Positions 4,501 through 47,684 of a stretch of 64,000 nt of DNA are shown here, in pieces. The notes beneath the pieces were generated by a model. The model had not been told where the DNA came from. It searched no databases and saw only the letters and a list, made by a program, of their open reading frames with translations. Both the position numbers and the translations under genes were made by a program. The first letter of the stretch is position 1. Each line of letters begins with the position of its first letter. The DNA is from Crambe crambe (lineage: Eukaryota > Porifera > Demospongiae > Poecilosclerida > Crambeidae): positions 3,505,501-3,569,500 of the forward strand of contig OZ004583.1 in the NCBI GenBank assembly GCA_963924555.1, given 5' to 3'.

Positions 4501-5073
4501 TCAGTCTTTCTTCGTAATCTTGAAGTAGGCTCGGTTGTAGTAGTTGGCATCGGCACCCACAAGGGAAGGAGACTCAAAGCCTGTACTGGCATCCCATCCT
4601 TTCTCTGCACCTCTCTCTCCTTTGATCGGCTCTCCATCTTGGAACAGATATCTCTGGGTCTCCACATTCTCAATGAAGTACCTCCCATTACCCTGAGGAA
4701 GGATTTTCCAATAGGCCAAGTTGTAGTAGTTCGAATCAGCACCAACAACTTTTGGTGCCTCAAATCCAGAGCTTGCCTTCCACCCGCCTTCATCTCCACG
4801 GTTTCCTTTGATGGGTTTCCCATCTTGAAACAAGTAGCGTCTAGTTTCGACATTCTCAATGAAGTACCTATCCTCGCCCTGAGGGCTAATTCTCCATTTA
4901 GCACGGTTGTAGTAATTATCATCAGTTCCAACAACTTTTGGTGCTTCAAATCCAGAACTTGCTTTCCAGCCACCCTCGGCTCCACGATCACCACTTATTG
5001 GATCACCAGTTTGAAACACATAGCGCTTTGTCTCCTCATTTTCAATGATGTATACACCATCGAACTGCGACAT
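4501..5073 (-). CDS. Three-repeat protein (beta-trefoil-like), copy 1
   Basis: An intact intronless 190-aa frame starts at the ATG ending at 5,073. It consists of three consecutive repeats of about 62 residues. Each begins with an aromatic-Ile-Glu-Asn core (YIIENEETKRYVFQ, FIENVETRRYLFQ, FIENVETQRYLFQ), continues through GxRGxExGWxASxGFExP, and ends with a YYN-aromatic segment. Three repeats of about 60 residues are the architecture of a beta-trefoil, so a cytosolic sugar-binding protein is plausible, but the ricin QxW signature is absent and I do not recognise the family. No signal peptide is present. A TATAAAAG lies about 100 bp upstream. The paralogue at 14,941-15,519 sits inside RPAP3 intron 5; this copy is its tandem-duplication partner, whose surrounding RPAP3 exons have been lost. 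Confidence 0.85.
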   Translation of the reverse strand: MSQFDGVYIIENEETKRYVFQTGDPISGDRGAEGGWKASSGFEAPKVVGTDDNYYNRAKWRISPQGEDRYFIENVETRRYLFQDGKPIKGNRGDEGGWKASSGFEAPKVVGADSNYYNLAYWKILPQGNGRYFIENVETQRYLFQDGEPIKGERGAEKGWDASTGFESPSLVGADANYYNRAYFKITKKD

Positions 5074-5810
5074 GCTTGTCCTTTAAGTGGTTGAGTTCTG
5101 TACTGAGGTGTGGCAATTGTAGAAGTGAAGCCTGTATCGTTCAGATGTAGCAATTTGAATAACCAGTGGCTCTTTTATAGTATGTACGTAGTCATGGACA
5201 GTTCCCACCATTTCCTTTCAGTGGAGCAGTCCAGGTGTTTAATGACATCATCATGAATGATTTCAGTGGAACAAAGTAATACTGCTTTCAACTTGCAGTC
5301 TAATAAGTAAAGTGTAGTAAAGGGTTCCCACCATTTCCTTTCAGTGGAGCAGTCCAGGTGTCTGAACTTTCAGCTTATACTTTACTATTATAAAAATACA
5401 TTATTGCCGCTTATTGAGTGCATTGTATACACACAGTGATGAAGACAAAAGTGGGTCAATACCCCCCCCCATAGCTATGTGACTCCTACCCAACAAAAAG
5501 GAGGCTATGATATGAAATTGCTGAAAAGTGCAGTGTTGCTGAGCCCTGACTGTCTTGTCATTGATTAGAGGAGTAGCCCCATTTCCATAACTGCTAATCT
5601 AAACCCAGAGATTTAGCCAGGGATTTAGCCAGGGATTTTGCTCATTACAGCACAGCACTATGCATGACTGCTGATCACTGGTCATTTTGCTGGAGATGCA
5701 CTAGTACAGTAGTTCCAGGAAGTAGTCACTGTGGTTTGTAGTCTGGCTAATTAGCATAGCAGTAGATGCTAAGCAAACTGCCTAGAAAGAGTCACTAGTA
5801 GGCCTACAAC
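5074..5810. other. Spacer with dispersed CCCACCATTTCCTTTCAG repeat
   Basis: No gene seen. A 35-bp motif containing 'cccaccatttcctttcag' occurs at about 5,207 and again at about 5,329. The same sequence, inverted, recurs in the 136-bp repeats at 7,185 and, degenerate, near 16,040. A doubled 'atttagccaggg' lies near 5,610. Confidence 0.5.
5171..5178 (-). promoter_or_regulatory. TATA box of three-repeat gene copy 1
   Basis: Read on the minus strand this is TATAAAAG, about 100 bp upstream of the start codon at 5,073. The corresponding position in copy 2 (about 15,634) reads TACAAAAG, so the two paralogues may differ in promoter strength. Confidence 0.55.
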
Positions 5811-6068
5811 TAGCCTCAAACCCAGCCTCTTTTTGGGGGGAAAAAAGAGAGCCTGGTATTCGCTGTTTGCGCACGCGCCAATTTTTGAATTATATAATTA
5901 ATAGATGCGCATGCGATGACAAAGTTTTGACGAGAAGTGCTAAGTGCAATCTCATGCATGATGTCGTAGGATCCTCCAGGGCATCAAAAGTAACAAGGGC
6001 TTCAGGGGCACAGAACAGAAGGCTATCTGATCTAAGACTGGCAGATGTAGCGAGGTGTACCTGGCCAC

Positions 6069-6718
6069 TAGTCTCTGTCCCAGCCCCCTAGCTCACAGCA
6101 CTGGATGTATTGCATCACCAGCACGCGAGGAAGGGGTCTGGTGGTCGGGCTGCAGCGGTCACGGAACTGTACTGAGGAATGTTTGGAATTTTACTTAAAT
6201 TCAATAATTATGCGCATGCGTGTTCATTTTGCCGCGGGAAAAAAGTTATTGCATGCAGCAGCAATGAGGCAGCTTTCTTGCAGGGTCTGTGGGAAAGAGC
6301 TCACTGATCACAGAGAGCGCAGGGTTCTCCACAGTAGTGCTAACAAGGAAGTGCTACCTGTTCTAGAGAAGTATATCTCCCAGGGAAGGATAAACCCTGC
6401 AATGATCTCTCCAATAGCTAGTGGTGGACCCTGGATCTGCAAACATCCATGCTATCCATGCTATAAAGAGTTAAAGCGAGTTCAAGAGATTCAAAATGAA
6501 CTGCAGACATCTGGCCTCTTATCAAGTTTCACCTACCACACCCCTTTTCGCGCGAAAGTTAATGTGTGGTAAAGTGGAAATCTAATCATTGGGTACGGGT
6601 GCGCCTGAATTCCGGCGCAGTTCCGTGACCGCTGCAGCCCGACCACCAGACCCCTTCCTCGCGTGCTGGTGATGCAATACATCCAGTGCTGTGAGCTAGG
6701 GGGCTGGGACAGAGACTA
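6069..6718. mobile_element. MULE-like element with perfect 101-bp terminal inverted repeats
   Basis: The arms 6,069-6,169 and 6,618-6,718 are exact inverted copies starting TAGTCTCTGTCCCAGCCC. Flanking 9-bp direct repeats CCTGGCCAC lie at 6,060-6,068 and 6,719-6,727. Long terminal inverted repeats with a 9-bp target duplication are the hallmark of Mutator-like elements. No transposase is present; the interior carries one Cys-rich ORF (6,264-6,572). Identical arms point to a recent insertion. It interrupts the outer element at 5,811-7,105. Confidence 0.85.
6264..6572 (+). CDS. Cys-rich ZAD-like ORF carried by the MULE element
   Basis: A 102-aa frame runs from the ATG at 6,264; the frame is open further upstream. 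It has a CRVC motif at residues 6-9, a middle predicted-helical region (LPVLEKYI) and a C-terminal CKHPCYPC cluster followed by a basic helix (KELKRVQEIQNEL). C-x2-C near the N-terminus and C-x2-C about 50 residues later is the layout of a treble-clef or ZAD-type zinc domain, often found at the start of transposon-derived or DNA-binding proteins. There is no transposase or DNA-binding C-terminal part. It may be a first exon of a MULE protein or a captured host exon; the stop codon is genomic, so a spliced product could be longer. Confidence 0.5.
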   Translation: MRQLSCRVCGKELTDHRERRVLHSSANKEVLPVLEKYISQGRINPAMISPIASGGPWICKHPCYPCYKELKRVQEIQNELQTSGLLSSFTYHTPFRAKVNVW

Positions 6719-6727
6719 CCTGGCCAC

Positions 6728-6873: not shown

Positions 6874-7051
6874 AAGGAGAAATGAGGAGCAGGAGTAAAA
6901 CTATATCACTAGCAACATAGCTGTACTGGTTGTGAAACTACGCCCATTAATTATAACAATCATGTAGTGGAAATATCCAAGTGAATATCCTGATTCCCAG
7001 ATTTCTGGGAAAAATTGGCGCATGAGTAAACAGTGGATACCAGGCTCTCTT

Positions 7052-14000: not shown

Positions 14001-17000
14001 CTATATTGCCAGCCAACAGAGCTATGGCCCTACTCAAGCTGGAGAGGTATGATCTTTTTAATTTTGTTGAGCGTAGCATGCAAACTTGCACACTAATCAT
14101 GTTAGTATGTTAGTGGAGATAAGTACTACCAAGTATTACCATGAGGTCAGGTGTACATACATATGTGGACCGATATGAGCATGTACATACAGTTAAAAGC
14201 ATTGGCCCTAGCATGCAAGCTTGCACACTAATCATGTTAGTGGAGACAAGTACTACCATGTATTACCATGAGGTCATACATATGTGGACTGATATGAGCA
14301 TGTGCAGTTAAAAGCATTACTTGGATACTGGGGTCAAAGTTCAATCATTCTCACTGCTAGCAGTTTTTGTTGTTGCACCTGATTCCACATAATTCATTTG
14401 GAGTAGGACAAATAAAAAATGTTCTCTTTTGTTATTGTTGTTCCTTTTGTTTTTGTTAGTTTTTTACATCCATTCCACAGATGATAAGGATAAAAGTCCA
14501 TTTTTATGTAGATGATATATATTTTTAAAAACCTTATTAAGGCCAAGGGTGGGAAAGGGTTGGAGAGTAGCTATAGTTCTAACACCTGGAAACTTTATTA
14601 TGCTTCTTCAGACTAATGAGTGCATATAATTATTTACAATGCAGATATGCTGCAGCTGAAGCAGATTGTTCTATAGCCCTGGACCTCGACAACAGCTATG
14701 TGAAGGCATACCTCAGGAGGGCCACAGCTAGAGTCAAGTTGAAAAACTTCAAGGGAGGCAGGGAAGGTTAGCAGGGTTTGATCTAGCTAAGATTGCATGC
14801 ATCAGTCAGCAATAGCCTACATCTCCTTGGAGTAAAAAAGCTTTATGTATATTAGGGAAGTATAACATTAGATATTTATAAGTTTACTTTCCAAGAAAAT
14901 GAGTACATTTCTGTTCAACAAAAAAAAAATGTTTCTCTGTTCAGTCTTTCTTCGTAATCTTGAAGTAGGCTCGGTCATAGTAGTTGGCATCGGTACCCAC
15001 AAGGGAAGGAGATTCAAAGCCTGTACTAGCAAGCCATCCTTGCTCTGCACCTCTCTCTCCAATCCTCTCTCCATCTTGGAACAGATATCTTTGTGTCTCC
15101 ACATTCTCAATGAAGTACCTCCCATCACCCTGAGGAAGGATTTTCCAATAGGCCAAGTTGTAGTAGTTCGAATCAGCACCAACAACTTTTGGTGCCTCGA
15201 ATCCAGAGCCTGCCTTCCACCCACCTTCATCTCCACGGTTTCCTTTGATGGAGTTCCCATCTTGCAACAAGTAGCGTCTAGTTACGACATTCTCAATGAA
15301 GTACCTATCCTCGCCCTGAGGGCTAATTCTCCAGTCAGCACGGTTGTAGTAGTTGGCATCAGTTCCAACAACTTTTGGTGCTTCAACTCCAGAACTTGCT
15401 TTCCAGCCACCCTCGGCTCCACGATCACCACTTATTGGATCACCAGTTTGAAACACATAGCGCTTTGTCTCCACGTTCTCAATGATGTATACACCATCAC
15501 TATCAAATTGCAAAGACATGCTTGTCCTTTGTTTAAGTGGTTGAGATTCTTGAAGTTTAGCAAAGAAGGCTCTGTGTCTTCTATGTACTGAGGTGTAGCA
15601 ATGAAGGCTGTATGACTATAACCAGGTGCCTTTTGTAGTATATCCTAGTATGTTCTAGCCAGACATGAGTATCATTGTTATGGCGCAGGAGAGGGGTGGT
15701 TCCCCATAATTACTTCAATTTAGATTAAGAGTGTTAATTATGTACTGTCTACAATGAACATCTGTTCTGTAACAATGAACAGTCACATGCTACTGTTCAT
15801 GTTCATTTGTTAGAGTGATTGCATCAGTTTTCAACTTTTCTCCCACAGCTTCATTCAGGGATGTAAAGCCACACCCACAATCCACACCCCTAAAACATAA
15901 AGCCGCAACTTAACCATACCCATTATAAATAAGGATATAAGCTGCTGCAGAGTTAGCAACCCCTGCATGGGGGTTAAAAGTAGGTAGACCATACACTCAA
16001 GGGTGTACCACATACCTGTTTAATTACACCTCTGGGGTGTAGACAACTCCCATCATTTCATTGGAGCAATTCTGTGCTCCACGTGGTGGGGGGGATATTA
16101 AACTAGAGGATCTAAGGGACGTGTGGTCTCTGTATAAGGGGCATCTTGGGGAGAGAACAGGGTAGAAGAGCAAGAAGAGTTTTCATAACCTTTGATCTTC
16201 CATCCCTACATAGAGAGTGTTAACACTCTGATAGGCTAGAGGAGCAGTAAGACAGCAGGAAAGTCAACTAATGACTAAACATCTTAGATAATTCTATTAA
16301 AAGCACAGCAACTTAGTAAAAGCATGTAATATCTATTGGTCTATGAAATTCAATGAGCGAGAGTTTTCTCCATTGAGGGAGAGCGAGTTGGAACTGTTAA
16401 ATGCTGAGCTATCATTGGCTCCTTCATCATGGAACATTTCCAGTGTGGCATATAAGGGAAGGGAGTTACTCTTACCCTTTGCATTGTTTGAAAGCGATGA
16501 CACATCGAGTAGAGCTGCATAATGTAATGAAAGCAGCTGCTTTAATTTCAAAGTAACAGACAGACACACACAGACACAACTGAGTACCGTAATCCTCGCT
16601 GCATGCACACCAAGGATTAATAATCCATTATGCAGTTATTCAGTACTAAGGATAAAATCTTTTTATTTGTTACATACTTCCTGAAAAATGTGGTCTGTTG
16701 ATAGCTAGTTCTCTGTATATAAAACAGCTGCTAGAATGATAAAGCGCTAACCTGTAAACATTCAGTACTAGACTAAGGAAAAAATCTTTTTATTTGTTAC
16801 ATACTTCCTGAAAAATGTGGTCTGTTGATAGCTAGTTCTCTGTATATAAAACAGCTGCTAGAATGATAAAGCGCTAACCTGTAAACATGTAACCTAATTA
16901 TAAACAGTACATATACATGTAACTACATAGTATAGTTATGCAGTTATTCAGTACTAAGGAAAAAATCGTTTTATTTGTTACATACTTCCTGAAAAATGTG

Positions 17001-20000
17001 GTCTGTTGATAGCTAGTTCTCTGTATATAAAACAGCTGCTAGAATGATAAAGCAGGTGCTAACCTGTAAACATGTAACCTAATTATCAGAGAGTGCGGTA
17101 GCACTCTCTAAGTAGGGATGGCAGGTCAAAGTCCATAGGACAGTATAAACTAAAAACTCTTCTTTCTCTTCTACCCTTACTCTACAGGTTCTCAGAAGGC
17201 TACAGTGAATTATTATATCTACAAAGAAGAGAGGAGAATGTTCAAAAGCCAAAAATTCATTCGCCAACATAAGAAAAAAACGAGTTCTAAAATTGACTTT
17301 TCGTTCTTTTTCTTTATAATAATAATAATAAGATCGACGTACCGACTTACTGGCTATAGTCATCAAAATTCTGCTTTGGCCATCTGTTAGAGCGGCACCT
17401 AGAGGCTGATCTTTTGCTATTAGTTTTGACTAAGGCTCTACTTCACTATTCGATAGCACTCAGAACACAGCTGCTAATCTTTCTACGCCATTTTGAAGGG
17501 GGCGGGGCTTATGGGCGGAGCCACGTAAGCTTAAGTTTAGCTATAGCCAAGGTCTTCATTCATTATCTGATGATGTTCCAGTCACTCCTTGCTGAATTAC
17601 AGTACAGATGCTCATCCTATAGTAGCATTATAGCCAGTACTGTAGTGTAGTCAGCTCACTTCACCATGCCGTGTACATGTCATTTACATTGCTGTTGCTG
17701 TAAAGTTTTATATCAACAAAACTTAAATAGCTAAACAAATTCTTCAACCAGAGACACTGTATGTACCTACAAAAGAGGTTTATGTAGAGCTGGCTTTGTA
17801 TATTACTGTACTGTAGCCTCCCTCATTCAACTTCAAGCACTAAGAAAAAGGATAGAAACAAGTGAGCGTAAAAAATTTCTTCAAATAAAAAGGTTAAGTA
17901 GGGATAGCCTAAAATCTAGCTGGGTTATCTATAATGTGCTGCAGCCTCGTATGAAAAAAATCTTCGCGATATTACCTCATAAAAGGGGTGGGGCAATTAA
18001 TAGCAGTTCTCCTCATATAACACCTGCACAGGATGTGGCCATTTGATGGCATCCACTATTATGATCACTACACCAAATGCATAAACTCCCCATACTCCTC
18101 CCTCAAGCAAGACATACGTACCATCTCAATAATTATTTCAGTGATCACATATGTAACAATTAGCTAATGCTGTTCACTTTTTAAAATGTTCACTCCTTTC
18201 AGTACTCCATTACACTGCAGATGATCATCCTTCAAACTCTCCTCCCTGAACAGAATGAAATACTGATCATTAAATAAATTTAGTTCAATCAAGGAAGCCT
18301 TTAGTGTCTATCAATTTTCATAATCACAAAGAAAAAGAATGCAAACAAGTGAATGCAAAAAATTTCTTCGAAATAAAAATGTGAAGTAGGGATGCTATTA
18401 TAACTGCAGCTTCATTATGAAAACCAAGTACTGCAGCATCGAAGCAGTATGGCCCAAAAATCTAGCTGGAATATGTATTATAACTGCATGCAAGAGAGTG
18501 AACTTAGTGAAGTGACCCTTACCCATCATCAAGTACAAGATACTATTCCTACTTCACTCCCTTGGCCCTTGATCATGGGAGTGAAGTAGGAATAGTATCT
18601 TGTACTTGATGATGGGTAAGGGTCACTTCACTAAGTTCACTCTCTTGCATGCAGTTATAATACATATTCCAGCTAGATTTTTGGGCCATACTGCTTCGAT
18701 GCTGCAGTACTTGGTTTTCATAATGAAGCTGCAGTTATAATAGCATCCCTACTTCACATTTTTATTTCGAAGAAATTTTTTGCATTCATAAACAGTACAT
18801 ATACATGTAACTACATAGTATAGTTATACTACGTCTCTCTCTTCCTCAGAGTTAAGCTAGCAGGTGCTAGCAACCTAATTATAAACAGTACATGTTTAAC
18901 TAGTATAGTTATACCACAAAAAGAACATCTGATTCCCATTATCATGAATCTTTTACATTCATTCATTTCTGTTTAAATTTGATCTCGCCAGATTTTGAAG
19001 CTGTTCTGAAGATTGAGCCAAGCCACAAACTGGCTATTGCAGAATTGGAAAAATTAGACAAGGTACATGCAGTCATTATGTGTGCATGAAACTGGACCAA
19101 TAGCTACAATAATGAATACTTTCAGTGGGAGTGGAGGACATGAATTGCAGGGCCAATTATAGTTGAATCATGCGTAGTAGATTTGGCACTGAATTTGCAC
19201 TGATTTTAAGCACCTGCTACTCACTTTTAACTACCATAATTATGCGTCATCTGATTGAGAGCTCTTCACAGATGTGTGGGCAATAGGTAAAGTGTCATCA
19301 TAAATGCTCATTCAGCAGAATTGGTAGGTCATTATGGACACTTAATGGTGGTAAAGGGTCACCGTGTCACCTCATTCTGATTGTATTTTTTTCTTCAGGA
19401 AGTAGGCACTGAAGGAATGCGATATATCAGAGCAGTGAAGCGACCTCCACACTTGAGATCAAAGGTTTGTGATCAGCTACTCTGTTATTATTGGACATTT
19501 AGCAGTTCAAGTTGATTTCCATCCATCAGTGATACAAATTCAATGTTAGATATCACAGGGTCTTCCCTCCCTCTCATGATTATGCATCCCTGATTGCAGG
19601 GGCCTCCCCTCTCATATAATCATGCATCCCTTATCACCTCATAGGGTCCTCCCTCCCATCCCCGATCAAAGGGTCCTCCCTCCTGTGATTATGCATCCCT
19701 GATCACAAGGTCCTTCCTCCCGTGATTATGCATCCCTGATCACAGGGTCCTCCCTCCCATCCCTGATCACAGGGTCCTCCCTCCTGTGATTATGCATCCC
19801 TGATCACAAGGTCCTTCCTCCCGTGATTATGCATCCCTGATCACAGGGTCCTCCCTCCTGTGATTATGCATCCCTGATCACAAGGTCCTTCCTCCCGTGA
19901 TTATGCATCCCTGATCACAGTGTCCTCCCTCCCATGATTATGCATCCCTGATCACAGGGTCCTCCCTCCCATGATTATGCATCCCTGATCACAGGGTCCT

Positions 20001-23000
20001 CCCTCCCATGATTATGCATCCCTGATCACAGGGTCCTCCCTCCCATGATTATGCATCCCTGATCACAGGGTCCTCCCTCCTGTGATTATGCATCCCTGAT
20101 CACAAGGTCCTTCCTCCCATGATTATGCATCCCTGATCACACCCATGATTATGCATCCCTGATCACAGGGTCCTCCCTCCCATGATTATGCATCCCTGAT
20201 CACAGGATCCTCCCTCCTGTGATTATGCATCCCTGATCACAAGGCCCTTCCTCCCGTGATTATGCATCCCTGATCACAAGGTCCTTCCTCCCATGATTAT
20301 GCATCCCTGATCACACCCATGATTATGCATCCCTGATCAAAGGGTCCTCCCTCCTGTGATTATGCATCCCTGATCACAAGGTCCTTCCTCCCGTGATTAT
20401 GCATCCCTGATCACAGGGTCCTCCCTCCCATCCCTGATCACAGGGTCCTCCCTCCTGTGATTATGCATCCCTGATCACAAGGTCCTTCCTCCCGTGATTA
20501 TGCATCCCTGATCACAGGGTCCTCCCTCCTGTGATTATGCATCCCTGATCACAAGGTCCTTCCTCCCGTGATTATGCATCCCTGATCACAGTGTCCTCCC
20601 TCCCATGATTATGCATCCCTGATCACAGGGTCCTCCCTCCCATGATTATGCATCCCTGATCACAGGGTCCTCCCTCCCATGATTATGCATCCCTGATCAC
20701 AGGGTCCTCCCTCCCATGATTATGCATCCCTGATCACAGGGTCCTCCCTCCTGTGATTATGCATCCCTGATCACAAGGTCCTTCCTCCCATGATTATGCA
20801 TCCCTGATCACACCCATGATTATGCATCCCTGATCACAGGGTCCTCCCTCCCATGATTATGCATCCCTGATCACAGGATCCTCCCTCCTGTGATTATGCA
20901 TCCCTGATCACAAGGCCCTTCCTCCCGTGATTATGCATCCCTGATCACAGAGTCCTCCCTCCCATGATTATGCATCTCTGATCACAGGGTCCTCCCTCCC
21001 ATGATTATGCATCCCTGATCACAAGGTCCTTCCTTCTGTGATTATGCATCCCTGATCACAGGATCCTCCCTCCCATGATTATGCATCCCTGATCACAGGG
21101 TCCTCCCTCCCATGATTATGCATCCCTGATCACAGGGTCCTCCCTCCCATGATTATGCATCCCTGATCACAGGGTCCTCCCTCCCATGATTATGCATCCC
21201 TGATCACAAGGCCCTTCCTCCCGTGATTATGCATCCCTGATCACAGGGTCCTCCCTCCCATGATTATGCATCTCTGATCACAGGGTCCTCCCTCCCATGA
21301 TTATGCATCCCTGATCACAAGGTCCTTCCTTCTGTGATTATGCATCCCTGATCACAGGATCCTCCCTCCCATGATTATGCATCCCTGATCACAGGGTCCT
21401 CCCTCCCATGATTATGCATCCCTGATCACAGGGTCCTCCCTCCCATGATTATGCATCCCTGATCACCCATGATTGTGCATCCCTGATTACAGGGTCCAAC
21501 TCCTAGTGTATCCTTATATTACTACCTTCACCTTTTCCTACCACAGAAACCACTTAAAAGAATCTTTATAGAAGATATCAGAACTGAAACGGCCAAGACA
21601 GACCTATCAGAACACCCCTCTCCTTCTTCCTCTCAATCCATCACAACTTCAGCATCAGCACCAAAATCCAATCATTCCAAGCCTGAGGGAGGGAGTGAGA
21701 TAAAATCCAATCATTCCAAGCCTGAGGGAGGGAGTGAGACAAAATCCAATCATTCCAAGCCTGAGGGAGGGAGTGAGATAAAATCCAATCATTCCAAGCC
21801 TGAGGGAGGGAGTGAGACAAAATCCAATCATTCCAAGCCTGAGGGAGGGAGTGAGACAAAATCCAATCATTCCAAGCCTGAGGGAGAGATTGAGACAACC
21901 AATCATACCAAGCATGGGGGGAAGAGCAAGAATACAAGTCCTATGGTGGAAGAAATAAAGGCATCACCTGCCATCCAGATCGAAACCAGTCAGACGACTC
22001 CTTTAGTAGAGGCCTGTGATGTGAACCGTGTTACAGTTATTACAGAAACTGGTAGAGCTGTTGGTGATGTGAGAAGTGAGACCACAAAGATGAAGGTGAT
22101 GGACACAATGACTGAGCAACCAGGCTCTGGAGATCAACAACAAACACCAGAAAGTGTCAAGTCTAACTGCAAGTTGGAGATGCCTGCAGTGCCACAGTCA
22201 TCCATTCAGTTTCAAGCCGATTGGAAGCGATTGAGAACCAATAAGAACACGCTGACTCAGTACTTCAAGGTGAGACAGGGTTCTCCCCAGTGAAACTGAT
22301 CAGAGCGGTGCTTGAATACCACATTTAAGGATTTTGATATTCTTGTGGTTATTAAAAATACATTGTTTTAATGCACATGAAAACATGAAAAAAATGGGCC
22401 CATCAGAGTGGTGTTGCACCTCTCTAACACCCTTTGGGGAAAATCCTGGCGAGATATTAGGTGCAAACCCTAACACATGAAAATAACTGGCCAGTGACCA
22501 GCAGTTTTCTGCCAGTGATTGATATGAATACAGTGTATAATGGAATTCACTATAATGAACACCTCAGTTATATTGCTATGATACAGGAAGCTAAATAGTT
22601 GAACTTTGACCCCAAGCTACTCAATGTAGTTTCAGTTTAACGAACGCTCTTTGGTCCCAAAGTGGTTGATATACTGAGGTCCCACTGTATTAATTCTCTC
22701 CCCCCACACATAAAATTGGTTGTCTATATGCCCCTACATTCATATAATATACTTCTCCCTCCTTTTCTTTAGTCTATTCCGATAGCAAAGTATCCACTGT
22801 TACTTCAGCAATCATTAGAGACCGATGTTTTTCAGGACATCATAACCATACTCCATGATCAATTTGTGAAGTAAGGCAATTAATTTGTATGTTAATGCAT
22901 ACAGTCAACCCATTCTAGTCTCTGTTAAGTTTAAGCTCATCTTGAGCTTATCTTGTACCTACAAGCTTGTCCTTAAATAGACAAAATGGGATTGATAGAC

Positions 23001-25394: not shown

Positions 25395-26956
25395 CTAATT
25401 TATGTTTCTGCTGTCTCCTAAGTCTTTGGAATAGTATTCTTCTGCGTACTGGCGTATATTGGATGGTTCATCTCTCTCTCTGTATTTATAGTTCTTGGCT
25501 ACTTTCACATAAACAATAAAGAATACAAGACAGAGCACTGTATTCAGAACATAGTACAAAAATCCACCAGTGGGGAAAAATTTTCGATTAAATTTCAGTT
25601 CCAAAAAAAGTGTGGATAAGAACCAAAAGAGACCATACTGGGCTAAAATTAGTCCAATGAATGATCCTTTCATGGAGTGAGGGCTCTGCGAACAGATAAA
25701 TTCAAAAAGAGCTGTCAAGATCAACAAGTAGGACAAATTTTCTGCCACACTTTGGAGAATGCTGGCAGATAACAATATGTCTACTACTTGTGGAGCCAAT
25801 AGCGAAACATTTAAGGATTCACTTGGATTCTTTTCACCATTAACAAAATAAGCTACCGTGTTGAGAGATGTTGAAAGGACAAGGGATATCAAGATGATAA
25901 ACATGCCAATTCCCATTCTCTTCAGCATTCCAGGGATGCAGTGTGAGAAGAAAGGACGAATCAAACACAGATAGAGAGGGATACTCACTATTGGAAGTAG
26001 ACAGAGAATAGTGCCTGCAGGAAGCATAAATCTTTTCATCCATGTAGTATAGTAAACATGGTCAATTCTTAAGAAATCAAATGGTGGAATAACATTACTC
26101 ATTGCAATAAAAAAGAAAAATACTGTTCCACAGCTTAAGAGTACTTTGAGGATCCTATAGAAGGCTTTGACATCTTCCACTTCTTCTGTGGTGAAGGGTC
26201 CTCCGTACTTGTTCTTGCCAAGGTCCAGCCCTGAAGGCAACTCATCTTCACAGTAAGTGAAAGCACTACGATGGATTGGGATTCTATGTTGATAAGCAAA
26301 TTTGGTGACTAATTTATAGGGATTAATTCTTTTGACGTCAATAACAAACAATTTTCTCAGGTGATGAGCAAAGCATAGGGCTACAATAAGTAATACTACA
26401 AGTAGCAAGGGTACCACAAAGGTCAATGTTATTACAAGGTACCTAAGAAGAGGTTGCAATAGATGTAACAGTGTTCCTATAGAATAGGTTGAAAATATAT
26501 TGTATGCCCATTACTACATGTTCCATTCTGGATCAAAAAACAATACACATTAGGTAATGCTAGACTTTGAGCCAAGATGATCATAATCGCATCACATATG
26601 AACTAGTTAGAATAGCTCTGAAACGACTGAATTTCACATCAGGCAAAATCCAGCGAGTGGACAGAATACAAGAATGATAGCATTGACACCTTCAGATAAT
26701 CATAATTGATATCCAAGACTTGCATGTATAGAAATCCATTGAACAGTAATCCAATTGAATTTATCATAATGAAGCACCAGAAAAGAATCAGAAGGGCTGC
26801 CTTGGAGCTCAAGCATTTTCGAGTGTTGCAATATCTTGCTGCCAGTGGTGGGAAATAGGATCTTTTCTTCTTCAATAGAGGTGATTTATCATTATATTGA
26901 GCAGGTTGCAGGCTGTCATTCAAGGAGACTTCATCTCTTGTTATCATTGTGAACAT
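25395..26956 (-). pseudogene. POT/SLC15-like transporter copy A, internally deleted
   Basis: The N-terminal part (26,639-26,956; MITRDEVSLNDSLQ, a KSPLLKKK motif, helix 1) and the C-terminal part (25,395-26,459; helices 6-12) lie in different frames. The sequence for helices 3-5 between them is largely deleted and frame-disrupted when compared with copies C, D and G. The 354-aa C-terminal frame is still open, including the TM10 motif LFEFICSQSPHSMKGSFIG. Probably non-functional as a transporter. Convergent with the intact secreted gene FReD-A. Confidence 0.8.
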
Positions 26957-27602
26957 CAGACTAGTCTAGTAGCTATATCAAATGCCATCCATTCCAGCAG
27001 CTACATGTAGCTATATCGCTAACCACTTGCCTTTAAAGGAAAACCATCAGTAGTAGTTACTTTGTCAAATAATTATGGGTCATGCCCCAATATTGTAGTT
27101 TTGACCTATGACTTATGATGCGATAATCATAGCTAGTTGCATTTGCCCATGTCAGACCTTCCATTACTATGGGTCATTACAATGTCATAAGCTATAGCTA
27201 ACTTAGCTACTTGCTGTATTACACTATTGAAGGGTATGTAATTTAAAATATATACATAATTCATAATTGGTATAGGTACAGGTAATTCAAGTTAACCCTA
27301 TACCCATTTTTAATGCACTCTTAAACTTTATACAAACCATCCCTCTGGATTAGGATTTTTTTGCAACCGTGCTTATGAAGGCATGCTAAAATGGCAGTGG
27401 AAGTAGATCGGACTGTACTATCTACTCCAGTTTAAGAACCGACTTAATTGTTCTTCTGGCAAGACCGAGGTGGTAAATTTCCTCATTGTCAGAAGAGTGT
27501 AGCTAATTAGAAACTAAATGATGGGGTGATTCTCAACATTTCAAATACTACTGCTAGCTACTCAAGATTACTGAGCTCAAAGAATAAACTATAATGGTAG
27601 TG
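26957..27602. other. Spacer with a relic of PSMD10 exon 1
   Basis: From about 27,360 to 27,500 (+) the sequence 'gcttatgaaggcatgctaaa', 'ggcagtggaag' and 'gtaaatttcctcattg' matches PSMD10 exon 1 at 41,790-41,940, with indels that break the frame. The rest (27,000-27,340) is shared with 30,880-31,230 and, in part, 33,660-33,910: it is the common upstream flank of the transporter copies. Confidence 0.65.
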
Positions 27603-28417
27603 TTCATTGGATGGTTCATAACTCTCTGTATTTATATTTCTTGGCTACACTCACATAAACAATAAAGAATACAAGACAGAACACTGTATTCAGTTCATAG
27701 TACAAATACCCACCAGTGGGGGAAAAATTTTAGTTGCAAGAAAAGTCTGGATAGGAACCTATAGAGGCCCATACTGGGCTAGCATCAGTCCAATAAGGAA
27801 TCCTTTCATGGAGTGAGGGCTCTGCGAACAGATGAATTCAAGAAGAGCAGTCAAGATCAACAATATAGACAAACTTTCTGCCACACTTCAGAGAATGTTG
27901 GTAGATAACAGTATGTCTCCCACATGTGGAGTCAATAGTGAAACATTTAAGGATTCGCTTGCATTCTTTTCGCCATTAACAAAATAAGTTGCTGAGTTGA
28001 GAGATGAAGAAAAGACAAGGGATATCAAGATTATAAACATGCCAATTCCCATTCTCTTCAACATTCCAGGAATGTGGTGTGACAGGTAGAGAGGGATACT
28101 CACTATTGGAAGTAGATTGAAGATAGATGTAGGAGCCAGCCAATTAATATCGTGAATGTACCCAGTATTCATAAAATTAGGTATTGATGGATCAAAATTA
28201 CCCATCGTGAAACAACAACAAAAAAACCATTCCATAACTTAAGAGTATACTTTGAGGATCCCATAGAAGGCTTTGACATCTTCCACCTTTTCTGTGGTGA
28301 AGGGTCCTCCATACTTATTCTTGCCAAGGTCCAGCCCTGAAGGTAACTCGTATTTGCAATAGGTGAAGGCACTACGACGAATTGGGATTTTATGCTGATA
28401 CGTAATTTTGGTCTCAT
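27603..28417 (-). pseudogene. POT-like transporter copy B, truncated
   Basis: Only sequence for the middle loop and helices 7-12 is recognisable. It is spread over at least two frames (27,888-28,235 and 28,169-28,417) with a degraded C-terminal end around 27,603-27,880. The first six helices are absent. No secreted-gene partner was found beside it. Confidence 0.75.
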
Positions 28418-28691
28418 GGTGACTTAGTCATGCATCATTAATCAGCAGACCTTCAATTATGGTATGGATTTCACAATTGCTATAGCTAACTTATTTGCTG
28501 CAGCTATTTCACATTATAGCTATGTGATTCGTGAACAGAGAATGTGGTAGCTTTATGCACATCAACCCTACACCTAATGGGGATGAGGCTAAAGAGATAT
28601 GTACCTCAGCGGCCAAATTATGACGTCATCATGTAATACAAAAGGTCATGAAATTAGATTGCTCAGTGGCCAAAATATCAAATGGGAGGGG
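28418..28691. other. Spacer between units B and C
   Basis: No gene supported. It holds weak remnants of the transporter upstream flank ('aatcagcagaccttcaattatgg' region) and runs into the FReD-C relic. Confidence 0.35.
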
Positions 28692-28806
28692 GTGTTTGTA
28701 GGACCCTTCCAACTGCCAGCAGGGAGAATGTGGAGGTCAGATTGTGTGGTGATAAGAATAATAACAATGAGAATATTCCCATTATAGAACTTTATGTCAG
28801 TGGGCC
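28692..28806 (+). pseudogene. FReD-C relic (3' end only)
   Basis: Matches the last about 110 bases of the intact secreted gene: 'aggacccttccaactgccag', 'ggagaatgtggaggtcagat', then 'gaatattcccatta' and 'gaactttatgtca'. No upstream exon sequence is present. Convergent with transporter copy C, as FReD-A is with copy A. Confidence 0.75.
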
Positions 28807-28929
28807 TTGTAATCATTAGTACCAAGTTTGATCGATTGGAAAATAATAAAGGAAATAAAAGACCAAGAGACCTTATAGTGATGATACAATGTGCACACGA
28901 TTATTATCTATTACATAATGGAGTTATAA

Positions 28930-30660
28930 CTAGTTTATGTTCTCACTATCTCCAAAGTCTTTAGAATAGTACTCTTCAGCATACTGGCGTATATTGGATG
29001 GTTCATCTCTCTCTCTGTATTTATAGTTCTTGGCTACCTTCACATAAACAATAACGAATATGAGACAGAGCACTGTATTCAGAACTAAGTACAAAAATCC
29101 ACCAGTGGGGAAAAAAGGTTGATGAAATTTTAGTTTGGAGAAAAGTGCAGATAGGAACCCAAAGAGGCCATACTGGGCTAACATCAGTCCAATGAACAAT
29201 CCTTTCATAGAGTGAGGGCTCTGTGAACAGATGAATTCAAGAAGAGCAATCAAGATCAACACACCAGAAAAACTTGCCACCACACTTTGCAGAATGTTGG
29301 CAGATAACAGTATGTCTACTACTTGTGGAGCGGATAGTGAAATGTTTAAGGATTCACTTGCATTCTTTTCACCATTAACAAAATAAGTTGCTGTGTTGAG
29401 AGATGTTGAAAGGACAAGGGATATCAAGATTATTAATATGCCAATTCCCATTCTCTTCAGCATTCCAGGAATGCAGTGTGAGAAAAAAGGTCGGATCAAA
29501 CATAGGTAGAGAGGGATACTCACTATTGGAAGTAGATACAGGATAACCATAGGAGTCATCCATATAGTATCATAAATGTACCCTGTGTTTACAAAATCAA
29601 ATGGTGGAGCAAAATTTCCCACTGCAATAAGAAAGAAAAATACTGTTCCATAACTTAAGAGTACTTTGAGAATTCCATAGAAGGCTTTGACATCTTCCAC
29701 CTCTTCTGCGGTGAAGGGTCCTCCATACTTGTTCTTGCCAAGGTCCAGCCCTGAAGGTAAGTCATCTTCGCAGTAAGTGAAGGCACTGCGACGAATTGGG
29801 ATTTTATGTTGATAAGCAAATTTGGTGACTTTTAACACTAATTTATAGGGATTAACTCTTTTGACATCAATGATGAACCATTTTCTCTGGTGATGAGCAG
29901 AACATAGGGCTACAACAAGAAGCACTACATATAGCAAAGGTACCACAAAGATCCATGTTATTACAATGTACTTAAGAAAAGGTTGCGATAGATTCAATAG
30001 TAGCCCTATACCGTTGCTTGATAATATAATATATACATAAAAAATCCACACAAACCAATGTATAAAGAGAGATTGATCCTCTGCTGGTGAGTCATGGAGT
30101 TGGTCCAAGCCAAACTGGATGGCATTGGCTATGAATCCAACGAAACCGATAATTAAGAATATGCCGAAAAGAAAAGATAGGCCTAAGCCAATCCAAAACA
30201 GATGATCATTACTGCATGTTCTATTTTGGATCAAAAAACAATACACATTGGGCAATGCTAGACTTTGAGCCAAGATAACCATAATCACTGACAGTAGCAA
30301 CACATACGAACTAGTTACAATTGCTCTAAAACGACTAAATTTTACATCAGCCAAAAATCCAGCAATTGGACAGAATATGAGAATGATGGCATTCATACTG
30401 TAACCATAATCAAATTTAATATTCAAGACTTGCATATAGAGAAATCCATTGAGCAACAATCCCATTGAACATAGCACCACAAAACTCCAGAAAAGAATCA
30501 GAAGGGCTACCTTGGAGTTCACGCATTTTCGAGTGTCGTGATATCTTGCCCCCAGTGGTAGGAAATGGAATCTTTTCTTCTTCAATAGAGGTGACTTACA
30601 ATGAGCAGGTTGCAGGCTGTCATTCAAGGAGACTTCATCTCTTGAGCTCCTGTTTATCAT
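28930..30660 (-). CDS. POT/SLC15-like 12-helix transporter, copy C
   Basis: I chose the ATG at 30,660 (576 aa) because it aligns with the starts of copies A, D and F (MI..RDExSLNDSLQ); the frame extends to 30,714. Twelve hydrophobic helices are evident. POT/PTR2 features: an IQFGLDQL segment after TM4 followed by SPAEDQSLFIHWF (compare FGxDQF), and a TM10 LLEFICSQSPHSMKG motif. The ExxER proton-coupling motif expected in TM1 is missing, so substrate and coupling are uncertain. The N-terminal SPLLKKK lacks the acidic residue that precedes it in copies A and D. The C-terminus EEYYSKDFGDS has a Tyr-rich tail. Intronless. Probable oligopeptide or related solute carrier; membrane unknown. Confidence 0.8.
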   Translation of the reverse strand: MINRSSRDEVSLNDSLQPAHCKSPLLKKKRFHFLPLGARYHDTRKCVNSKVALLILFWSFVVLCSMGLLLNGFLYMQVLNIKFDYGYSMNAIILIFCPIAGFLADVKFSRFRAIVTSSYVLLLSVIMVILAQSLALPNVYCFLIQNRTCSNDHLFWIGLGLSFLFGIFLIIGFVGFIANAIQFGLDQLHDSPAEDQSLFIHWFVWIFYVYIILSSNGIGLLLNLSQPFLKYIVITWIFVVPLLYVVLLVVALCSAHHQRKWFIIDVKRVNPYKLVLKVTKFAYQHKIPIRRSAFTYCEDDLPSGLDLGKNKYGGPFTAEEVEDVKAFYGILKVLLSYGTVFFFLIAVGNFAPPFDFVNTGYIYDTIWMTPMVILYLLPIVSIPLYLCLIRPFFSHCIPGMLKRMGIGILIILISLVLSTSLNTATYFVNGEKNASESLNISLSAPQVVDILLSANILQSVVASFSGVLILIALLEFICSQSPHSMKGLFIGLMLAQYGLFGFLSALFSKLKFHQPFFPTGGFLYLVLNTVLCLIFVIVYVKVAKNYKYRERDEPSNIRQYAEEYYSKDFGDSENIN

Positions 30661-30706
30661 CGTGAATGTTAGACTATTTTCAAAATGCCATCCACTCCAG
30701 CAGCTA

Positions 30707-30872
30707 CACTGCAAAAACGAAAATTGTTATTTTAACAAACCTACTTAGTTAGGTGAGGTTAATCATTTGAAATCTGTCAATATATTTTTGGTGAATATAA
30801 CAAACTGTTTGGTTGTTTCAACGATGATTAGTCTTGCCTAACAGTTGAAATAATAATTCTGTTTTTGCAGTG
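30707..30872. mobile_element. MITE with CACTGCAAAAAC ends, TA target
   Basis: Inverted ends CACTGCAAAAACGAAAAT and its imperfect complement (ending 'gtttttgcagtg' at 30,872), flanked by TA. The corresponding site beside copy A (about 26,996, 'cagcagctacatgtagcta') is empty, so the insertion postdates the split of units A and C. It lies 46 bp upstream of the transporter start codon. Confidence 0.75.
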
Positions 30873-31509
30873 TATATACATGTAGCTATATCGCTAACCA
30901 CTTGCCTTTAAAGGAAAACCATCAGTTGTAGTTACCTTTGTCATATAATTATGGGTCATACCCCAATATTGTAGTTTTGACCTATGACTTATGATGCAAT
31001 AATCATAGCTAGTTGCATTTGCCCATGTCAGACCTTCCATTACTATGGATCATTACAATGTCATAAGCTATAGCTAAGTCAGCTACTTGCTGTATTACAC
31101 TATTGAAGGGTATATAATTTAAAGTATATACATAATTCATGATTATTATAGATACGGGTAATTCCTATAAGCACATCAAGTTAACCCTATACTCATTTTT
31201 AATGCACTCTTAAATTTTACACAAACCATCCCTCTGGATTAGGACAACTGTGCTTATGAAGGCATGCTAAAATGGCAGTGGAAGCAGACTATCTATTAAA
31301 AGGAGACTCCAGTTTAAGAACCGGACTTGTTCTTCTGGCAAAACTGAGGTGGTAAAATTTCCTCATTGTCAGAAGAGAGTAGCAAACTAAATGATGGGGT
31401 GATTCTCAATATTCAAATACTACTGCTAGCTACTCAAGATTACTGAGCTCAAAGTTAGAGAATAAACTATGATGGTAGGACTTGTGAGAAGTAGCTATAG
31501 ACACGGTTG
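30873..31509. other. Transporter upstream flank with PSMD10 exon 1 relic
   Basis: Shared with 27,000-27,600. From about 31,235 to 31,400 (+) it carries a decayed copy of PSMD10 exon 1 ('gtgcttatgaaggcatgcta', 'ggcagtggaagcaga', 'gagactccag', 'cctcattgtc'), with small deletions that break the frame. Confidence 0.65.
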
Positions 31510-31790
31510 CATCATAATGACTTCATAGAATATCAGTATGTCTGTGGCACAGAAATAGCTAATGGTTGTTAATGAAAGGGGGATCATGTCTCACCATTGT
31601 AATTAGTCTTATAATATGTTTACATGGATCACTGATGATAACACCATGGGATGGAATGAAGTGTGGTCAAGTCAGCAAGTCAATAATCCACTGTGGTTTT
31701 GTAAAACTCTTCCGACTGCCAGCAGGGAGAATGTGGTCAGATTGAGAATAACAACAATGGAACAATGCGAATATTTCCATATCCAGAATC
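31510..31790 (+). pseudogene. FReD-D relic with internal inversion
   Basis: Pieces match the middle and 3' end of the intact gene ('aatgacttcatagaatatca', 'tgggatggaatgaagtgtgg', 'ccgactgccagcagggagaa'). A piece of about 60 bases near 31,545-31,605 ('ggcacagaaata', 'gttaatgaaagggggatca') is in reverse orientation relative to the gene. Non-coding. Confidence 0.7.
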
Positions 31791-31863
31791 AAGAAAATTA
31801 ACAAATGCACAAAAATAAAGACCAAAAGACCTTGGTAATGATCACACAATCACTATCTAGGAC

Positions 31864-33609
31864 CTATAAATTATAGTTAATGCTTTCACTATCTCCAAAG
31901 TCTTTAGAATAGTATTCTTCAGCATACTGGCGTTCATTTGATGGTTCATCTCTCTCTCGGTATTTATAGTTCTTGGCTACCCTCACATAAACAATAAAGA
32001 ATACAAGACAGAGCACTGTATTCAGAACAAAGTACAAAAATCCACCAGTGGGGAAAAAATTTTGATTGAATTTCAGTCTCAAGAGAAGTCCAGCTAAGAA
32101 CCAAAAGAGACCATACTGGGCTAACATCAGCCCAATGAACAATCCTTTCATAGTGTGAGGGCTCTGCGAACAGATGAATTCAAGAAGAGAAATCAAGATC
32201 AACACACCAGAAAAACTTGCCGCCACACTTTGCAGAATGTTGGCAGATAACAGTATGTCTACTACTTGTGGAGCCAATAGTGAAACATTTAAGGATTCAC
32301 TTGCATTGTTTTCACCATTAACAAAATAAGTTGCTGTGTTGAGAGATGTTGAAAGGACAAGGGATATCAAGATTATAAACATGCCAATTCCCATTCTCTT
32401 CAGCATTCCAGGAATGCAGTATGAGAAGAAAGGACGGATCAAACACAGGTAGAGAGGGATACTCACTATTAGAAGTAGATACAGGATAGCCGTAGGAGTT
32501 ATCCATATTGTATCATATCCTGTTTTTACAAAATCAAATGGTGGAGCAAAATTTCCCACTGCAATAAAAAAGAAAAATACTGTTCCATAACTTAAGAGTA
32601 CTTTGAGAATTCCATAGAAGGCTTTGACATCTTCCACTTCTTCTGTGGTGAAGGGTCCTCCATACTTGTTCTTACCAAGGTCCAGCCCTGAAGGCAAATC
32701 ATCTTCACAGTAAGTGAAGGCACTACGACTGACTGGGATTCTATGTTGATAAGCAAATTTGGTGACTTTTAACACTAATTTATAGGGATTAACTCTTTTG
32801 AGGTCGATAACGAACCATTTTCTCTGGTGATGAGCAAAGCATAGGGCTACAACTAGAAGCACTGCAAGTAGCAATGGTACCACAAAGGTCAATGTTATTA
32901 CAAGGTACGTAAGAAAAGGTTGTGATAATGCTAGCAGTAGCCCTGAAGCATTGCTTGATAATATAATGTATACCAAAAAAATCCATGCAAACCAATGTAT
33001 AAAGAGAGATTGATCCTCTGCTGGCGAGTCATGGAGTTGGTCCAAACCAAACTGGATGGCATTGGCTATGAACCCAATGAAACCGATAATTAAGAATATG
33101 CCAAAAAAAGAAGATAAGCCTAAGCCAATCCAAAATAGTACAACAAGACGTCCATTACTACATGTTCCATTCTGGATCAAAAAACAGTACATATCTGGTA
33201 TTGCTAGACTTTGAACTAAGATTATCATAATCGCTGACAGTAGCAACACATATGAACTAGTTAGAATAGCTCTGAAACGACTGAATTTCACATCAGCCAA
33301 AAATCCAGCAAGTGGACAGAATATGAGAATGATAGCATTGATACCAAAAGCAGCACTATCATAATTGATATTTAAGACTTGCGCATATAGAAATCCATTG
33401 AACAGTAATCCAATTGAACTTATCACGATAAAACACCAGAAAAGAATCAGAAGGGCTGCCTTGGAGCTCAAGCATTTTCGAGTGTTGCGATATCTCGTTG
33501 CCAGTGGTGGGAAATAGGATCTTTTTTTCTTCAATAGAGGTAAGTTGTCATTGCAATGAGCAGGTTGCAGACTGTCATTCAAGGAGGCTTCATCCCTCTT
33601 GGTTATCAT
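31864..33609 (-). CDS. POT/SLC15-like 12-helix transporter, copy D
   Basis: Intact 581-aa frame from the ATG at 33,609 (MITKRDEASLNDSLQPAHCN). The cytosolic N-terminus has DNLPLL, a match to the acidic dileucine endolysosomal sorting pattern [DE]xxxL[LI]; the human relative SLC15A4 has a similar N-terminal signal, suggesting an endolysosomal location. Twelve helices follow: TM1 starts AALLILFWCF, IQFGLDQLHDSPAEDQ follows TM4, and the TM10 motif is LLEFICSQSPHTMKGLFIG. TM1 lacks the ExxER motif of proton-coupled POTs. A large loop with FTYCEDDLPSGLDLGKNKYG between TM6 and TM7 is near-invariant among the copies. Intronless. Confidence 0.82.
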   Translation of the reverse strand: MITKRDEASLNDSLQPAHCNDNLPLLKKKRSYFPPLATRYRNTRKCLSSKAALLILFWCFIVISSIGLLFNGFLYAQVLNINYDSAAFGINAIILIFCPLAGFLADVKFSRFRAILTSSYVLLLSAIMIILVQSLAIPDMYCFLIQNGTCSNGRLVVLFWIGLGLSSFFGIFLIIGFIGFIANAIQFGLDQLHDSPAEDQSLFIHWFAWIFLVYIILSSNASGLLLALSQPFLTYLVITLTFVVPLLLAVLLVVALCFAHHQRKWFVIDLKRVNPYKLVLKVTKFAYQHRIPVSRSAFTYCEDDLPSGLDLGKNKYGGPFTTEEVEDVKAFYGILKVLLSYGTVFFFFIAVGNFAPPFDFVKTGYDTIWITPTAILYLLLIVSIPLYLCLIRPFFSYCIPGMLKRMGIGMFIILISLVLSTSLNTATYFVNGENNASESLNVSLLAPQVVDILLSANILQSVAASFSGVLILISLLEFICSQSPHTMKGLFIGLMLAQYGLFWFLAGLLLRLKFNQNFFPTGGFLYFVLNTVLCLVFFIVYVRVAKNYKYRERDEPSNERQYAEEYYSKDFGDSESINYNL

Positions 33610-34059
33610 TGTGACTTAGTCAGTATTCCAAATGCTACCCTTCACCAATCCACTCCTGCAGCTATATATAGCTAGCCACTTCCTTATAAGCCACCAGTAG
33701 TAATTGCTCTTGTCATGTGGGTACCCCCAATATAGTGATTTTTGCATTACATCATTATGATGTAATAATTTACATCATGATTATTTACAATTGCTATAGC
33801 TACTTCCTGTATTATACAGTTGACAGATACATAATTCGTTAATAGATAGCTAGCTAGTTTAAGTTAACTCCTATGCACATCAACCCTACCACCCTTTACA
33901 CACACCATCCCTCATGGATTTTTGCAACTAGGCTTATGAAAGCATTAAGATGGCAGAAGAGGTTTATCTAAAAGAGACTTCTGAGCTCAAAGTTAGAGAA
34001 TAATGGCTATGCTATAATCTGACCTTACTGAGGGGAGATGGGTATAGCTATAATGGAAT
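33610..34059. other. Spacer with PSMD10 exon 1 relic
   Basis: Shared transporter upstream flank, more diverged than the others. About 33,916-33,990 retains 'gatttttgcaact', 'gcttatgaaagc' and 'aaaagagacttc' of PSMD10 exon 1. Confidence 0.55.
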
Positions 34060-35020
34060 AATGGGCTATAATGGAGCACTTTCTTGGAATCCATCCTAAT
34101 TTGAAGATTTCGAGTAAGTTTAGCTGCTATGACTGCTCTTATGTACCATCTTGGAGGTTAAAAACTCAACATGGATTATTTTTTCATAATTTCTTTTCTG
34201 TTGAAGTTCATGAGCAATTATCAGAAACTAGCTGCTCCTTTGGCACATACGAGGGCAACCCTGCTAGCTACGCATATCCTGTGAAGAATTTACCAAAGTT
34301 GTGAACAAGTTTGGAAGACCAAGGTGTGAATGATAGTGATTGTTGATAAGTTAAAATTTTTGTGGATTTGGAATGGAAAGATGTGATGGTGCAGTTCATA
34401 GTTCAAGTGTACTGTTCTGGTGAATGGAAGAACGTTTCTTTCCTTAACAATACAGATTTATTGCCTTGTCCATGAGGAACTAAACTTTAACAGGGTACTT
34501 GCTGATCAGAACTTAGCAATTCACATGGTGTCTCATAAAAAATTCATGGAATATCAGCATGTAGCTATGTGGTAAAGTGAAGGTAGTATCGCCCACTGGA
34601 TGCATTTGCTTCGTACAACACAGATACCTTGATGATAACTACGTACCTTATCATCACATGATATGGGAGTGGCCCACGTAAACATAGCTATCTGCAGCTT
34701 TGCTGTTGGTTTGGATAAGACTTGTGTCAACATGCACTAACCGATGTCCTTGTGCTGATAGAGGGTTCACTTACAATAATGTGATCCCCCCCCCCCCTTT
34801 CATTTACATCTGTGCCACAGGCAGCAGGATGGCAGCATGGACAGGATTTTATTCCAATTATTTTAGGGATGGGTTGGGTGACACTTGCTGTACTTTGGAT
34901 AACCCACCATGGTTTTGCAGGACCCTTCCAACTGCCAGCAGGGAGAAAGTGGAGGTCAGATTATGTTGTGATGAGAATAATGACAATTATAATATTCCCA
35001 TTAGTCTCAGTGTCCAGTGA
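34060..35020 (+). pseudogene. FReD-E, near-full-length decayed copy
   Basis: Covers most of the secreted gene from the region after the signal peptide to the stop, with many small deletions and frame changes. The best frame (34,700-35,020) retains NRCPCADRGFTYNNVIPP, TCCTLDNPPWFCRTLPTASR and EVRLC. The signal-peptide region is not recognisable. A C-run of 11 lies near 34,787. Confidence 0.8.
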
Positions 35021-35189
35021 ACCTTGTAGCTAAAAAAGGCGATGTACTGTAAAATTAGGAAATTTTGTTAGATAATTTTCATTCAATAGAATTAGTTCTC
35101 ATAAAAATTAGGTGGTTCGTTGTCATAAAGCTAATTTTCATGAGAACTAAGAGTTTTATCGTGTTAGCTGAGAGGAATAAGAAAAGAGT

Positions 35190-39750: not shown

Positions 39751-39928
39751 GAAGAATAAATAAACCCATTATAGCTAGAAACTTGTATATCCAGTAAGCC
39801 TTGTAACTAGCTATATAATTACCAAGTCAAAAAAAAAAAGAGTTGTTAATGTAGACAAAGTGAAGTTACTATTATTTTTTTGGTTATCACAATGATGTGC
39901 ACACATAATGAACATGATGAAGGAATAG

Positions 39929-47567: not shown

Positions 47568-47659
47568 CTGATCATCCATTTTTTTAGTCCTACATGTAAT
47601 GGTTTTAAAAAATAACAAACAAACAAAAATAACAACAAAAACAACTAATAATTATAAAT

Positions 47660-47680: not shown

Positions 47681-47684
47681 AAAG

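Follow-up and report, generated by a model that had tools for sequence, protein, structure and literature searches.

The window analyzed here, a stretch of 64,000 nucleotides from contig OZ004583.1 of the sponge Crambe crambe, holds several gene families and a range of repeats, among them three short mobile elements that we named E1, E2, and E3. POT/PTR2-like transporter genes and their fragments form an array at 25395–41617, in both orientations and mostly 80–89% alike by self-BLAST. Three long frames of this array matched PTR2 just below the cut-off (24.8–26.5 bits vs 27), and a fourth (31867–33615) gave no match at E 0.01. A duplicated segment (46796–52332 and 54420–59689, pieces 80–97% alike) has LBP/BPI-like frames in each copy and a guanylate-cyclase-like frame in the first one. 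A ricin-B-lectin-like frame that contains internal repeats of 186 bp is present in two copies that are 93% alike (4504–5082 and 14944–15615). A 37-bp minisatellite of ~50 copies (19657–21466) shows a strong strand asymmetry, with a GC skew of -0.325 over 20001–22000. We also observed a near-perfect palindrome of 439 bp (18350–18788, 98%), a fold-back structure at whose ends our scan (see below) found no 9–11-bp duplication, and a MITE-like 52-bp inverted pair, 96% alike, with 109 bp between its arms (61556–61768), for which the same scan found no exact 7–11-bp duplication.

Structure of E1

E1 is a 650 bp element at 6069–6718. Its terminal inverted repeats, a left arm at 6069–6169 (+ strand, starting TAGTCTCTGTCCCAGCCCCCT) and a right arm at 6618–6718 (- strand), are 101 nt each and 100% complementary to one another, with 448 nt between them. 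The 9-bp sequence CCTGGCCAC flanks E1 exactly, at 6060–6068 on the left and, as an exact copy, at 6719–6727 on the right; the span 6060–6727 comprises the element together with both copies of this target-site duplication. Upon inspection of the borders, we noted that TA precedes the left copy (6058–6059) and that E1 itself ends in TA, which permits an alternative reading of the direct repeat as 11 bp (TA + 9), with two ends that then differ. An earlier note on this DNA had described perfect 101-bp inverted repeats and an exact 9-bp target duplication, and both were confirmed, the latter with an 11-bp reading if TA is counted. Since the arms and the duplications are identical, a recent insertion is suggested, as the same note had proposed from arm identity; homogenization of the arms is a possible alternative. 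E1 itself is almost certainly a transposon.

The first 30 bases of the E1 arm had no further match in the window at up to three mismatches, and no empty site was found within the window after removal of E1, or of E2 or E3. Separately, a 42-bp inverted pair, 88% alike, brackets E1 at 5845–5886 (left copy, AAGAGAGCCTGGTATTCGCTGTTTGCGCACGCGCCAATTTTT) and 7010–7051, and E1 seems to be nested in an older transposon of another family.

Two further elements with the same ends

Our scan of the window sought 12-base inverted ends with no more than one mismatch that are bounded by an exact 7–11-bp duplication. Four of the 13 resulting rows had a 9–11-bp duplication, and these correspond to E1, E2, and E3, the last being listed twice, with a duplication of either 9 or 11 bp. 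The other nine rows, with 7- or 8-bp duplications, were two shifted readings inside E1–E3, one in the palindrome (at 18493), and six in the repeated gene array at 29–41 kb. Inverted ends with a 9–11-bp duplication were found in none of 25 shuffled windows.

E2 (688 bp, 42218–42905) has TAGTCT ends, arms that are 89% alike over 72 columns, and the duplication GGCAGAGCT at 42209–42217 and 42906–42914, preceded by TA. E3 (355 bp, 46135–46489) likewise has TAGTCT ends; its 71-bp arms differ by one mismatch, and its duplication, CCTTTGATG at 46126–46134 and 46490–46498, has TA on both outer sides. E1, too, starts with TAGTCT, and the exact 9-bp duplication is present in all three, in line with the length that the earlier note had expected of further copies. 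Moreover, the window contains six copies of the octamer GGTCTGGT (both strands), one in each arm of the three elements, always pointing inward and starting 36–67 bp from the end: at 6135–6142 (+) and 6645–6652 (-) in E1, at 42254 (+) and 42863 (-) in E2, and at 46172 (+) and 46445 (-) in E3. The octamer was chosen after inspection, but a simple count shows that it is found nowhere else in the window. When 104-bp stretches of the window were drawn at random in threes, any 8-mer was common to all three in 27 of 20,000 draws. A second sequence, CAGCCCCCT, is common to E1 and E2, with all four of its occurrences in the window lying in their arms. E1, E2, and E3 are related non-autonomous transposons, and GGTCTGGT is a candidate transposase-recognition motif.

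TA stands before the left duplication in each of the three elements and on four of the six outer flanks, and the elements end in ...CTA. At the TA frequency of the window (0.079), four of six flanks would be expected with a chance of ~5e-4, a pattern that was noticed post hoc and that points to insertion beside a TA. With the right end placed two bases further in, the direct repeat of E1–E3 can be read as 11 bp, and that of E3 even as 13 bp; we retained 9 bp as the duplication length because it leaves the ends symmetrical.

The surroundings of E2 and E3 were also inspected. Immediately downstream of E2 (region 42209–43385) follows an ankyrin-repeat ORF (Pfam Ank) that resembles gankyrin/PSMD10, and E2 is possibly located in an intron or the 5' region of this ankyrin-repeat gene. 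Upstream of E3, the flank is similar to parts of 54099–54329, and the alignment over the E3 site itself was uninformative. A near-palindrome in that second region, TAGCCTCGTCCCC...GGGGGACGAGGCTA (54143–54208, 83% self-complementary), has flanks that resemble the E3 upstream flank, so it may have been inserted into just one copy of a duplicated segment.

Superfamily assignment

MULEs are described as having target duplications of 8–11 bp and terminal repeats of 14–500 bp (PMC6446971). The three elements match this description both in their 9-bp duplications (11 bp with TA; 13 bp for E3 in its longest reading) and in their repeats, which measure 101 bp at 100% in E1, 72 columns at 89% in E2, and 71 bp with one mismatch in E3. 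Their TAG termini, on the other hand, depart from the G/C in the first three terminal bases that is a trend in most arthropod MULEs, though not a strict definition of the group (PMC13359780). The MULE type given in the earlier note is supported by the lengths of duplication and repeats, with TAG as an atypical terminus, and E1 probably belongs to this superfamily, an estimate that is not independent of the one for its core (see below). We call the group MULE-like rather than filing it as a proven member, a judgement made on ends and duplications alone.

E1–E3 could instead belong to another superfamily with 8–9-bp duplications, such as Merlin or hAT, or to one as yet unnamed; this would be compatible with every account of the core. 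The atypical TAG terminus and an assignment drawn from ends and duplications leave room for such a placement. However, hAT duplications are 8 bp, whereas those of all three elements are 9 bp (or 11 bp with TA). Merlin elements, with duplications of 8 or 9 bp, have a conserved terminal 5'-GG (PMC8101967), again at odds with TAG. Both superfamilies fit E1–E3 worse than MULE does, and we consider a placement outside the MULEs rather unlikely.

A profile search, systematic for stop-to-stop frames of at least 110 aa, matched a transposase family in none of the 33 such frames of the window (one frame searched at E 10, 32 at E 0.01).

The open reading frame of E1

E1 carries an ORF of 102 aa (CRVCG...CKHPCYPC) with a weak resemblance to zf-AD at 6264–6572 (+ strand), with its ATG at 6264, its last codon running to 6569, and TAA at 6570–6572. 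We took 6264 as the start since the first CxxC follows directly after it. The frame itself extends, free of stops, back as far as 6072 within the left arm (166 codons), and earlier in-frame ATGs are found at 6105 (155 aa), 6210 (120 aa), and 6216 (118 aa). The open frame of at least 102 aa that the earlier note reported is present, and, consistent with that note's statement that E1 has no transposase, the ORF matched no transposase family. When the whole of E1 was shuffled by dinucleotide (n = 2000), the observed length was reached 17 times by a stop-to-stop frame and seven times by an ATG frame; the corresponding counts for the 448-nt interior alone (n = 2000) were 11 and four. An ORF of this length would thus be a moderately, but not overwhelmingly, improbable product of chance.

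The product had been described as zinc-binding-like, and a comparison with ZAD, THAP, and BED profiles had been proposed. Its CxxC...CxxC pattern speaks for this description, as does its best Pfam match, zf-AD (PF07776; 14.3 bits, E 0.049), which aligns residues 6–82 with profile positions 2–67 of 75. This score is nevertheless below the gathering cut-off of 28 bits, and the zinc-binding call is weak. Neither THAP nor BED was among the five Pfam families that the ORF matched at E ≤10. To gauge the zf-AD match, we compared it with 30 shuffles in which Cys, His, and Trp were kept in place. None of them matched zf-AD, but 18 other families were matched among the 30, at E 0.0058 in the best case; an E of 0.05 means little on its own because Cys-preserving shuffles reach E 0.0058 with some Pfam family. 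The ORF had no NCBIfam match, and a sequence search of the Protein Data Bank returned nothing below E 0.5. Single-sequence structure prediction gave a poor model (mean pLDDT 54.5), and a fold search with this model yielded 38 matches, the best at E 4.3, and no useful fold. Lastly, the codon usage of the ORF was not host-like (score -0.086, with ~83% of random segments scoring higher), although this test is weak: the nine training frames of the window score from -0.06 to 0.13, and the Pfam-supported ankyrin-repeat frame scores -0.06.

Much of this is what one would expect if E1 were an ordinary MITE-like element, with an interior of unremarkable filler and an ORF whose frame and CxxC...CxxC pattern are both fortuitous. 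An ORF length just moderately unusual, reached by 4 to 17 of 2000 shuffles, a codon usage unlike that of the host, a sub-threshold domain match, a poor structure model for which no fold was matched, and the E-values of the Cys-preserving shuffles, which go down to 0.0058, are all consistent with such an origin. It accounts less well for a match that none of the 30 shuffles reproduced and that spans positions 2–67 of the profile, and the CpG mosaic described below would still demand an origin for the core. We regard a chance frame in filler as unlikely.

The frame could, alternatively, be the first exon of a transposase or accessory protein with an N-terminal zinc-binding DNA-recognition domain, the rest of which was lost when E1 arose by internal deletion from an autonomous MULE-like element. 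The ORF begins a short way inward of the left arm, the stop codon is overlapped by a donor-like GTAAAG that would be compatible with a first exon, and an added zinc-finger motif is frequent in MULEs (PMC6446971). By contrast, the MULE table in that source has no zf-AD among its zinc-finger types, and the lack of a match between the ORF and any transposase family also argues against this origin, as does the CpG evidence considered in the next section.

Searches for relatives outside the window covered bacterial, archaeal, and viral collections and have almost no bearing on an animal genome. A 20-mer of the E1 arm had no match in the bacterial, archaeal, and viral contigs, which says almost nothing about animal DNA. 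With the ORF protein, we obtained 32 pattern stretches in bacterial and archaeal genome contigs and two in viral contigs, no relative among either, and no match in phages.

CpG mosaic and origin of the core

CpG is unevenly distributed along E1. The left inner shell, between the arm and the ORF (6170–6239, + strand), has a CpG o/e of 1.75 and contains an Nrf-1-like GCGCATGCG at 6212. It is followed by a CpG-depleted core (6240–6535, + strand) with 2 CpG in 296 bp (o/e 0.13), and then by a right inner shell (6536–6617, + strand; o/e 1.31) with TTTTCGCGCGAAA at 6545 and the donor-like GTAAAG that overlaps the stop codon. TpG and CpA stand at 1.27 and 1.30 in the core; the whole window has 0.31 for CpG, 1.26 for TpG, and 1.25 for CpA. 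The arm alone has a CpG o/e of 0.53, and arm plus inner shell 0.80 and 0.81, hence the CpG-rich state is strongest just inside the arms. With core borders that are approximate and were set after the CpG positions had been seen, core and inner shells differed at a Fisher p of 2e-4, and a CpG-poor stretch of this length was obtained in 49 of 100,000 permutations of the 13 interior CpGs. A palindrome suspected at 6536–6571 proved no better than chance, with 4730 windows as good.

Among 296-bp stretches of the window, 95% have a CpG o/e of at most 0.74 and a quarter of at most 0.15, so it is the shells, not the core, that are the unusual part. E2 has the same pattern: its CpG-poor core, at 42341–42800, has an o/e of 0.14 and its ends have 1.14 and 0.81. 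E3 is CpG-rich throughout (o/e 0.92), with merely 213 bp between its arms and little room for cargo. We detected no similarity between the E2 core and the E1 core. The four translated E2 frames contained no domain; a single match to an enzyme family (E 0.063), far below its cut-off, was taken as chance.

Most simply, these profiles would be read as element-type ends that, in both E1 and E2, enclose DNA which had long resided in a methylated host genome and was then captured; the evidence is suggestive and indirect. It favors capture over a leftover transposase exon, which should have had the same past as the ends. Had shells and core evolved together, the CpG break between them would be hard to account for, and E2, which has related ends, the same CpG pattern, and a core without detected similarity to that of E1, is likewise difficult to reconcile with internal deletion. 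Derivation from an autonomous element by deletion is a possible origin of E1, but in our view a doubtful one.

Some observations count against a captured core: no parent gene was matched in the window or in the bacterial, archaeal, and viral collections, no second copy (paralogue) of the E1 core was found in the window, and the codon usage, by the weak test above, is not host-like. Ordinary genes, moreover, also have this look, a CpG-rich start followed by a CpG-poor exon, which provides a partial alternative for the left side of E1. Promoters of the sponge Amphimedon are marked by Nrf-1-like motifs and increased CpG (PMC4773876), and 6170–6239 is a candidate promoter. The earlier note had left open whether the ORF is a MULE exon or a captured host exon; the CpG mosaic tips the choice toward capture without settling it. 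On balance, we lean slightly toward a captured host core in E1, an assessment that is not independent of that for the MULE superfamily.

A model for E1

Combining both parts, our preferred explanation is that E1 is a non-autonomous MULE-like cut-and-paste transposon with a captured core, a joint claim that we put forward tentatively, at a little less than even confidence. A transposase made elsewhere in the genome, and acting in trans, would recognize TAGTCT and the subterminal GGTCTGGT. It would then excise E1 and insert it with a 9-bp stagger, probably next to TA, to give the 9-bp duplication. Most likely, the middle of E1 would be part of a host gene that was copied between the ends, namely a first exon encoding a zinc-binding N-terminus. 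Template switching during repair, which has been proposed for animal Pack-TIRs, might have been the route; capture by these elements is described as gap filling with microhomology (PMC8277862).

The look of a cargo carrier, with a CpG-poor core, is shared by two of the three elements in the window (E1 and E2). It is conceivable, though very unlikely in our estimate, that the TAGTCT...GGTCTGGT ends define a distinct lineage of 9-bp-duplication transposons in an early-branching animal, inserting next to TA and habitually packaging host exons. If so, Pack-MULE-style exon shuffling would operate in non-bilaterian animals, and chimeric transcripts would be predicted to start from the CpG-rich ends. 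A Pack-MULE-like pair in a non-bilaterian, if real, would in itself suggest that exon capture by MULEs extends beyond plants and insects. The end signature (TAGTCT, GGTCTGGT 36–67 bp in, and a 9-bp duplication after TA) offers a handle for tracing further copies and an autonomous partner in the assembly.

Comparison with known systems

Elements that work like E1 are already known in plants and in Aedes. The suggestion in the earlier note of an undescribed mobile system does not hold, given that Pack-MULE-like elements have been reported in Aedes (PMC5225508) and Mutator elements in placozoans (PMC12221973). Among the titles and abstract openings on which our literature search was mostly judged, we found no description of a Pack-MULE in a sponge.

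The closest likeness is to the Pack-MULEs of plants and the Muta1 derivatives of Aedes aegypti, which, like E1, are non-autonomous, have inverted repeats, and carry foreign-looking interiors that differ between elements with related ends (PMC5225508). The Aedes derivatives have 8–9-bp duplications, comparable to the 9 bp of E1, and ~20% of them contain host-gene fragments (PMC5225508). In these systems the parent host gene is known (PMC5225508), whereas the E1 core is a candidate capture, and the termini of E1–E3 are TAG. Pack-TIRs of animals resemble E1 as TIR transposons with non-transposon DNA between their ends, but they are mostly hAT and Tc/mariner elements (323 of 370), and the survey of 100 animal genomes that described them reports no Pack-MULE (PMC8277862). 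Merlin elements share with E1–E3 duplications of 8 or 9 bp and inverted repeats (24–462 bp in Merlin) and differ in their 5'-GG ends, as opposed to 5'-TAG (PMC8101967). Lastly, the Tm1 Mutator/Foldback elements of Meloidogyne have 9-bp duplications, as do E1–E3, and include transposase-coding, cargo-bearing, and MITE-like classes with common end motifs, much as E1–E3 have end motifs in common; Tm1 differs in that its ends bear tandem repeats and other motifs and in that a putative transposase is known (PMC3169594).
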